Shown here: positions 19,238 to 25,058 of the stretch, one piece after another | Layout: each line of letters opens with the position of its first letter | How positions within the stretch are numbered: position 1 is the first letter of the stretch | NCBI RefSeq assembly: GCF_004324755.1 | Contig: NZ_SDMQ01000005.1 | Coordinates: forward strand, 1-64,000 | Reading direction: 5' to 3' | Origin: Propioniciclava sinopodophylli | GTDB lineage: Bacteria; Actinomycetota; Actinomycetes; Propionibacteriales; Propionibacteriaceae | DNA length: 64,000 nucleotides | Notes under the pieces: generated by a model | What the model was told of the DNA's origin: nothing | The model's database searches: none | Seen by the model: only the letters and a program-made list of their open reading frames with translations | Position numbers and translations under genes: made by a program

Positions 19238-19274
19238 CAATCTGCTGGACATCGTCGAAGAGGAGAGGGTGCTC

Positions 19275-21947
<2,673 letters not shown>

Positions 21948-22533: not shown

Positions 22534-22577
22534 TTGCGGCGCCGCGCCTCGCACCCTAGAATCGAACGCACGTTCGA
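22534..22577 (+). promoter_or_regulatory. Sigma-A-type promoter with overlapping LexA (SOS) box
   Basis: TTGCGG at 22534-22539, a 17-nt spacer and TAGAAT at 22557-22562 make a near-ideal housekeeping promoter. TCGAACGCACGTTCGA at 22562-22577 is a perfect palindrome that fits the Gram-positive/actinobacterial LexA consensus CGAAC-N4-GTTCG. The expected start site (about 22569) falls in the middle of the box, so LexA binding would occlude it. AAGGAGG follows at 22580-22586. Confidence 0.8.
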
Positions 22578-22592
22578 ACAAGGAGGTGCGTG

Positions 22593-23063
22593 ATGTCGAC
22601 GCTGAGCTGGACGCCGACGGCCGCCCACGGCTTCGGCCGGTTCGCGGGCGAACCGGGTCGCCACCCGGTCGGGCGCACGAAGTTCCCAGCCCAGACCGCG
22701 CTGTACACCCCGCCCGGGTGGCCCGAGGGCGTCCGGCCCCCGCACAGCCCGGAGTGGGAGGCGACGGCCACCAACTTCCTGCTCGACTGCTGCCCGGCCG
22801 AGTACCGGGGGTACCCGGTGCTGCGCCGGCACCCGGTCATCCTCGCCCGGTTCGCCGCCGAGCACGTCGAGTCGCAGGTCCAGGCCTGCCGCGACGGCAT
22901 CGGAGGGGTGCGGGCGAGCCTGGGCCACCTGGTCAGCCCCGAAGCACTCGAGGCGGCGCTGGCGGCGTGGCACGAGCAGGCCGAGCTGCTGCGCCGTCGC
23001 CGCCGCGAGGTGGCGCTGGTGGAGGAAGCGCTGCGCGGCAAGGTGTTCATCCGCAAGATGTGA
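22593..23063 (+). CDS. Hypothetical protein under a LexA box
   Basis: A 156-residue soluble protein I do not recognise. It begins MSTLSWTPTAAHGFGRFAG, has a Pro-rich stretch (YTPPGWPEGVRPPHSPEWE) and a central LLDCCPAEYRGYPVLRRHP, and finishes as a long alpha-helix rich in Arg and Glu (residues ~80-150, including LLRRRRREVALVEEAL). There is no signal peptide or membrane helix. The ATG at 22593 is set by AAGGAGG with 6-nt spacing. The upstream promoter carries a LexA palindrome, so it should be DNA-damage inducible. A DNA repair or checkpoint role is inferred only from this. dxs downstream has its own promoter. Confidence 0.72.
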   Translation: MSTLSWTPTAAHGFGRFAGEPGRHPVGRTKFPAQTALYTPPGWPEGVRPPHSPEWEATATNFLLDCCPAEYRGYPVLRRHPVILARFAAEHVESQVQACRDGIGGVRASLGHLVSPEALEAALAAWHEQAELLRRRRREVALVEEALRGKVFIRKM

Positions 23064-23132
23064 AGCACGGATGGCGGCGGCGCGCGCCAGCCGGGCTGGG
23101 TTCGCGGGGCCCGTATGCCTAGAATCGTACTC

Positions 23133-25058
23133 ATGTCCCTTCTCGAGGCGGTGCACGGTCCGCGCGACCTGCGGGCGCTGAGCGCACCCCAGTTGGCCGA
23201 GCTGGCCGACGAGATCCGCACCTTCCTCGTGGGCAGCGTCAGCCGCACCGGCGGCCACCTGGGGCCCAACCTCGGCGTGGTGGAGATGACGATCGCGCTG
23301 CACCGGGTCTTCGACTCGCCGCACGACCCCATCATCTTCGACACCGGCCACCAGAGCTACGTGCACAAGATCCTCACCGGGCGTCAGGAGGGCTTCCCCG
23401 GCCTGCGGCAGAAGGGCGGCCTCACCGGCTACCCGTGCCGCGCCGAGAGCCCCCACGACTGGGTGGAGAACTCCCACGCCACGACGAGCCTGTCGTGGGC
23501 CGAGGGCCTCGCCAAGGCCTACCGCCTGCGCGGTGAGGACCGGACGGTCGTCGCCGTGATCGGCGACGGCGCGCTGACCGGCGGCATGGCCTGGGAGGCC
23601 CTGAACAACATCGCCGTCGGCGCGGACCTCAAGCTCATCGTCGTCGTCAACGACAACGGGCGCTCCTACACCCCGACCGTCGGTGGCATCGCCTCCCACC
23701 TGTCCACGCTGCGGACCGACCGCCGCTACGAGCCGACGCTGAAGCAGATCAAGCAGCGCGTCCGGTCGGCCCCGGTCGTCGGCGGCGCGCTGTACGACCT
23801 GCTGCACGGCTTCAAGACTGGCGTGAAGGACATCCTCGCCCCCCAGGGCATGTTCTCCGACCTCGGCATCAAGTACGTCGGTCCCATCGACGGGCACGAC
23901 ATCGGCATGATGGAGCGTGCCTTCGAGTCGGCCAAGAACTTCGGCGGGCCGGTGATCATCCACTGCATGACCGTCAAGGGCAAGGGCTTCCGCGCGGCGG
24001 AGGAGGACGAGGCGGACCGCTTCCACGCCGTCGGCCTGATCGACTCCGAGACCGGCGAGCCGCTGACCGCCAGCCCCAGGCGCACGTGGACCGACGCGTT
24101 CCGCGAGGCGATCGTCGACATCGCGCGCGCCGACGCGAACGTCGTCGGCATCACCGCGGCCATGCTGCACCCGGTCGGCCTGGACGCGATGGCGCGGGCC
24201 TTCCCTGACCGCGTCTTCGACGTCGGCATCGCCGAGCAGCACGCGGTCACCTCCGCAGCCGGCCTCAGCAGGGGCGGCCTGCACCCCGTCGTCGCCCTGT
24301 ACGCCACCTTCCTGAACCGCGCCTTCGACCAAGTGTTGATGGACGTCGCGCTGCACGGCCAGGGCGTCACCTTCGTGCTCGACCGCGCCGGCATCACCGG
24401 GCCCGACGGCGCGAGCCACCACGGCATGTGGGACACGTCGCTGATGGCGCTGGTCCCCGGCGCCCACGTGGCCGCACCGCGCGACGAGCGCCGCCTCGTG
24501 GACGCGCTGCGCACCGCCGTGGGCGTCGATGACGCGCCCACGGTCGTCCGCTACTCCAAGGACCCGCTGCCGCCCGAGCTGCCGGCCATCCGCTCCCACG
24601 GGGGCGTGGACGTGCTGGCCTCGCCGGCGGACGCCCGCGTCCTGCTCGTCGCCCACGGGCCGTTCGCGCACCTCGCCGTCGAGGCCGCCGACCGGATGGG
24701 CGCCCAAGGCATCCCATGCGCGGTCGTGGACCCGGTCTGGGCCCTGCCCGTGAACCCCGCCCTCGTCGAGCTGTGCGGCGCGGCCGAGTTGGTCGTCACG
24801 CTGGAGGACGGCGGCGTGTCCGGCGGCTTGGGGGCGGCGCTCGCCCTGGCCTGTCAGCGCGCGGGCGTCTGGACGCCGCTGCGCCACCTCGCGATCCCGC
24901 AGGAGTTCCTCGATCACGCCAGCCGCGCCGAGATCCTGGGCGAGCTGGGGCTGACGGCCGACGACGTGGCCCGCGCGATCGTCGACTGGGCGTTAGAGTC
25001 CACCGCGGCGAAGGTCGCGCGCACCGCCGTGGCGGAGGGCCCTAGAGCAGGGGCGTGA
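23133..25058 (+). CDS. dxs: 1-deoxy-D-xylulose-5-phosphate synthase
   Basis: Thiamine-diphosphate enzyme that condenses pyruvate and glyceraldehyde 3-phosphate, the first step of the MEP isoprenoid pathway. 641 residues from this start. Motifs: [32 protein letters not shown], the ThDP signature [27 protein letters not shown], and the transketolase central domain with [18 protein letters not shown]. The ATG at 23133 is preferred over 23115 because TAGAAT at 23120-23125 ends 7 nt before it, which gives a leaderless mRNA; the longer start would place the -10 box inside the gene. The 3' end overlaps convergent rnd by 17 nt. Confidence 0.94.

Follow-up and report, generated by a model that had tools for sequence, protein, structure and literature searches.

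A short gene lying between acnA and dxs, here called gene X, is in all likelihood (a probability of about 0.85, judged from sequence) a LexA-repressed member of the SOS regulon in this bacterium and its relatives. Within the window, i.e., the whole stretch of 64,000 nt that was analysed, gene X occupies positions 22593–23063 of the + strand and encodes a 156-residue protein of a new family, predicted to be all-helical and with a conserved core spanning approximately residues 38–156. The start is a GTG–ATG pair at 22590/22593, of which the GTG form would give 157 residues and the ATG form 156, and the stop codon is at 23061–23063. The flanking genes, both identified by eye and both on the + strand like X, are acnA (aconitase; 19269–21947), a frequent upstream neighbour, and dxs (1-deoxyxylulose-5-phosphate synthase; 23133–25058), a frequent downstream neighbour, for which the open-reading-frame list also holds an alternative ATG at 23115. 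We note that dxs has a TAGAAT of its own (23120–23125) a few nucleotides 5′ of the ATG at 23133, which suggests that the dxs transcript may be leaderless and separate from that of X.

The putative operator is embedded in the promoter of X. Reading 5′ to 3′ on the + strand, a weak −35-like hexamer TTGCGG (22534–22539) is followed after 17 nt by the −10 hexamer TAGAAT (22557–22562), and the ribosome-binding site AAGGAGG (22580–22586) precedes the start codon. The LexA/SOS box TCGAACGCACGTTCGA (22562–22577, no strand assigned), a sequence match that is kept 5′ of homologues, has the form TCGAAC-N4-GTTCGA and shares its initial T with the end of TAGAAT. A preliminary description of this DNA had listed TAGAAT, AAGGAGG, the 17-nt spacing from TTGCGG and the 156-residue open reading frame, all of which are present as described; the promoter it proposed from the two hexamers holds in its letters and spacing, whereas the −35 element is poor and no sigma-70-type site was found there by a consensus scan. 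The box had also been called a perfect palindrome, a term that fits the two arms (6 bp, exact) but not the central GCAC, which lacks self-complementarity and leaves two mismatches on the opposite strand. Its agreement with the actinobacterial SOS consensus CGAAC-N4-GTTCG, on which the same description had relied, is complete (10/10), and the same motif is found before recA. LexA positioned at 22562–22577 would overlie both the −10 region and the predicted start of the transcript, thereby blocking transcription. Upon DNA damage, a RecA filament would stimulate the self-cleavage of LexA, the promoter would be freed, and the short helical-hairpin protein X would be produced.

The exact pattern CGAACN4GTTCG occurs once within the window. 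Across the genome (43 contigs, 3.07 Mb) it is found 13 times, versus three for the reversed pattern; by our own reading of the open frames, eight of these 13 sites fall within genes, and the remaining five are upstream of recA, ruvC, a Dam-like methylase, gene X, and a short open reading frame that precedes a DnaE-type polymerase. The RecA, RuvC, DnaE-type and Dam-like labels are those of NCBIfam, with the polymerase and the Dam-like gene scoring below the curated cut-offs. The same genome encodes RecA and a LexA above its curated cut-off, and three 9/10 sites lie in the 500 nt preceding the matched region of lexA. Because exact sites number 13 genome-wide, eight of them gene-internal, the single site at X is by itself suggestive at most; it is the conservation of the box in homologues that places the site beyond chance. 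Among the other boxed genes, the Dam-like adenine methylase (outside the window, at L041:1091–2014; contig C39 of G000, about 67.6 kb) is preceded by an exact SOS box, which lies approximately 75 nt upstream between the methylase gene and a divergent open reading frame.

A protein search of the same family, the Propionibacteriaceae, located an X homologue in 117 of 197 genomes, and all 117 loci were read, the best box within 200 nt upstream of the match being scored out of 10 letters. The best score was 10 in 49 loci, 9 in 37, 8 in 16, 7 in 10 and 6 in 5. Thus, a box of at least 9/10 is present in 86 of the 117 homologues, as compared with 31 of 2,340 dinucleotide shuffles, and a perfect box in 49 of 117, as compared with none of the 2,340 shuffles. 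In control windows of equal size, taken 400–1400 nt upstream in the same loci, sites scoring at least 9 were found in 4 of 532. At least one copy with a box scoring 9 or more occurs in 18 of 19 genera. The counts vary with the choice of anchor: re-anchoring on the GWP motif gives a score of at least 9 in 85/117 loci and of at least 8 in 105/117. A TA...T hexamer stands immediately 5′ of CGAAC in 35 of the 86 homologues whose box scores at least 9/10. Fifteen of the 117 score 7 or less in the first count, and several of these low scorers retain one arm beside the −10 hexamer (TAGAATCGAA or similar), the other arm having decayed. In Tessaracoccus-type loci (L088, L101, L109 and similar), the box appears to overlap the start codon (CATGTTCGATGA), an arrangement that would suit a leaderless transcript whose first codon is covered by LexA.

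As a yardstick, the recA box of the same family is perfect at 22 of the 29 loci that could be anchored. A recA box of at least 9/10 is found in 14 of 16 X-carrying versus 8 of 13 X-lacking genomes, in a sample that is small and non-independent and leaves aside the one unanchored locus of 30. In some Propionibacteriaceae, recA is without a recognisable SOS box (L276, L278, L279, L282, L284 and L288, in genomes G013, G063, G035, G047, G022 and G061, respectively); five of these six genomes are also without X, and the LexA match of G013 is weak. In sum, the comparisons establish at sequence level the match of the putative operator, its overlap with the −10 hexamer, its conservation, and its use in common with recA and ruvC, and the earlier proposal of a candidate new SOS gene under a LexA box is well supported. 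The repair, checkpoint or division-control function proposed along with it is conjectural and finds no support in these results.

Beyond the family, the scan of orthologues gives a divided answer. When 393 genomes of the class Actinomycetes were searched with a 40-row profile, 157 proved to have X. A draw across the whole phylum gave 11 matching genomes among 246, namely the genome itself, nine more of the class, and one marginal match outside the class (E = 7e-4). Upstream regions were read for 91 of the 157 X-carrying class genomes. Five family codes, that of the Propionibacteriaceae (f1) included, commonly carry the box. In the other four, it is perfect in 14 of 14 loci read in f2 (18 genomes have the gene), scores at least 9 in 26 of 27 read in f16, with 14 perfect (37 have the gene), and is present in the single locus read in f43 and in four of six in f29, the other two being without it. 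In contrast, no site of at least 9 within 300 nt was found in any of the 40 genomes read from twenty other family codes, many of which are represented by a single genome; this set includes 10 of 10 Streptomyces-like homologues. Loci L198 and L218, correctly anchored, are box-less. The candidate thus survives the check on orthologues that the preliminary description had set for it: they carry the box in most Propionibacteriaceae loci and in most of those read from f2, f16, f43 and f29, but not in these twenty codes. Since LexA is encoded in 387 of the 393 class genomes, a lack of LexA does not in general explain the missing boxes. A protein tree of 64 rows requires a minimum of seven changes in box state, the tree being a quick one with many weak forks, in which family rows scoring 7 or 8 were set to 'none' and gain is indistinguishable from loss. 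Given the box-less state of 40/40 genomes in the twenty codes and of 2/6 in f29, SOS control appears unnecessary for the basic role of X. X is, as these distributions indicate, an old actinomycete gene, putatively under LexA control in some lineages only. Distant relatives of X occur in five actinomycete plasmid records (tblastn), and we infer from similar named plasmid copies that f16 is probably Streptosporangiaceae-like and f18 Streptomyces-like.

For protein X, Pfam, NCBIfam, PHROGs and PADLOC returned weak single rows only, none of them credible. The window protein has no NCBIfam family and one sub-threshold Pfam row, and the profile searches of 40 and 43 family members gave single-member rows only, the best of which are TetR_C_6 (E 0.0067, one of 40 members), RecX_HTH2 (0.09) and MCP_Sipho (0.017). 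That the protein matches no SOS family, as the preliminary description had it, agrees with our searches, in which the known SOS effector families (RecA, LexA, RecX, ImuA/B, DnaE2, SulA, ChiZ and others) gave no profile match to X. A search of the PDB by sequence gave no credible chain (best E 0.51 and 0.21), and searches of open-licence PMC texts listed no description of gene X.

The structure prediction once proposed for the 156-mer returned an all-helical hairpin without a PDB match. In the AlphaFold2 model, built from 40 aligned rows, helices span residues 55–66, 69–73, 75–79, 81–110 and 116–147 with a mean pLDDT of 87.7, and the first approximately 40 residues are of low confidence. A 123-residue homologue from f2 is modelled with the same layout (pLDDT 95.9), and the predicted all-helical hairpin fold of X can be regarded as confident. 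Foldseek against the PDB and viral models gave nothing at E ≤ 0.001; the top fold row for the second model, human topoisomerase I (E 0.076, 113 columns at 10 Å rmsd), was rejected as a generic long-helix match. Weighted over 149 rows, the conserved residues are Pro40, Gly42, Trp43, Pro44, Val47, Pro50, Trp55, Ala59, Leu63, Asp65, Pro68, Arg72, Arg78, Arg79, Pro81, Leu84, Ala85, Arg107, Leu110, Arg138 and Ala146; X also has a conserved PPGWP motif and an arginine set (Arg72, Arg78, Arg79, Arg100, Arg107 and Arg138). The net charge of 40 class members ranges from −5 to +7, and such near-neutral charge points to a protein-binding rather than a DNA-binding surface.

Several other assignments were considered and set aside. 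An HEPN-like RNase was suggested by an R-x4-H at residues 86–91 of the window protein, but the histidine is poorly kept (0.43 weighted). Phage records gave no match at E 0.01 and no viral contig was confirmed, and the PADLOC defence families gave two single-member rows only (best E 0.038); with the plasmid relatives being distant ones in five records, an origin from a phage or plasmid was rejected, as was a phage or anti-phage defence protein. A partnership with canonical DnaE2 was likewise rejected, DnaE2 being present in 40 of 117 family genomes with X versus 28 of 80 without (Fisher p = 1).

X is found between acnA and dxs in many families, with many Propionibacteriaceae loci among them. 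In some box-less lineages (L247, L248 and L250–L252), X starts no more than approximately 25 nt past the end of acnA, as if the two genes formed one operon, and X is retained without a box in genomes of 1.8–2.4 Mb (L247 and L250–L252). acnA and dxs were not near X in nine f16 and five Streptomyces-like loci inspected, and the f16 loci distant from these genes carry the box nonetheless. Apart from acnA, dxs and the genes around them, no widely recurrent partner of X was found, nor a recurrent repair gene adjoining it. A HIT-like gene (by eye) is often divergent from X in Propionibacteriaceae loci. In two f16 loci (L231 and L232), too few to count, a DnaQ-like exonuclease (by eye) is divergent from X, and the intergenic stretch that they have in common holds the box.

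Three other explanations bear on the box and on the protein behind it. A box that arose by chance, or that serves a protein other than LexA, is very improbable: most of the 13 exact genomic sites lie inside open frames and X is box-less in many lineages, as such a site would allow, but the contrast between 49/117 homologues and 0/2,340 shuffles for the perfect box, together with the same motif before recA, speaks against it. X might instead be a housekeeping protein of the acnA–dxs region, metabolic, Fe–S or envelope-lipid related, for which SOS control in some lineages would meet a general stress need and not DNA repair. The recurrent acnA–X–dxs order, with metabolic genes on both sides, and the retention of X in small box-less genomes are what one would expect of such a protein; however, being neighbours is in itself a weak link, acnA and dxs are not near X in the f16 and Streptomyces-like loci inspected (with f16 still boxed), and the box before X has been kept through deep divergence within several family codes. 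We consider this explanation unlikely.

A checkpoint protein induced by SOS, i.e., a soluble functional counterpart of SulA, YneA, ChiZ or DivS that delays division or replication after damage, would agree with a small protein that has no obvious membrane part and is encoded under a LexA box, and the want of a PDB fold or family match leaves room for it. Streptomyces, according to the S. venezuelae study, has no clear homologues of known SOS division regulators, the mechanism being unidentified (PMC9380542). Against this stand the box-less Streptomyces-like copies and the lack of any sequence link between X and a known inhibitor. Moreover, the box-less X genes close to the end of acnA, in the small genomes among others, are probably expressed constantly, and a division inhibitor would hardly be retained under such expression; a checkpoint function is, in our view, quite unlikely.

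For the LexA-controlled gene X preferred here, the long helical hairpin, the near-neutral charge, the PPGWP motif and the arginine set would be consistent with a small protein–protein adaptor supporting replication, repair or damage tolerance, the likeliest of the roles considered, though less probable than not. A broader proposal, which we put forward tentatively, is that X is the founding member of a hitherto undescribed protein family spanning the class. The gene would be an old one of the acnA–dxs region, under LexA control in several lineages, and its product would work there as a DNA-damage effector unlike those of other SOS systems, perhaps as a helical-hairpin adaptor whose target is the replisome, the divisome or the repair machinery. 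For species other than the models, SOS regulons have been mapped only poorly, and effectors that connect damage to the cell cycle are not known in several actinobacterial groups. X is short, widely kept and preceded by a strongly conserved putative LexA operator, and offers a direct target for knock-out, and its box-positive and box-negative relatives amount to a natural experiment on the entry of a gene into, and its exit from, LexA control.

SulA, YneA, ChiZ and DivS are small, SOS-controlled inhibitors of cell division. X resembles them in being small and, by its box, SOS-controlled, but differs in having no credible Pfam or NCBIfam match, in its predicted all-helical hairpin, and in occurring without a box in many lineages. 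Another uncharacterised actinomycete protein with a link to LexA (for X, by the box only) is pvnz_37140, a hypothetical protein on plasmid pSVJI1, which is reported in the S. venezuelae study as a LexA target co-induced with a Pol IV (PMC9380542); the plasmid matches of X amount to five records, none of them named S. venezuelae, in a collection that may lack pSVJI1. Table 1 of the same study includes no gene recognisable as X, though several entries are named only as hypothetical (PMC9380542), which fits the missing box in Streptomyces-like copies. The family to which X belongs is, as far as sequence matching goes, new to the libraries searched; the SOS regulon itself is a known system. In S. 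venezuelae, ChIP-seq yielded a LexA motif tCGAAC-N4-GNNCGa, to which SPR lent support, and the LexA targets include recA, lexA, dnaE2 and ruvC (PMC9380542). The promoter of X carries the same operator motif, and in its genome, as in that regulon, the box is also found at recA, ruvC and a polymerase of the error-prone type (PMC9380542).
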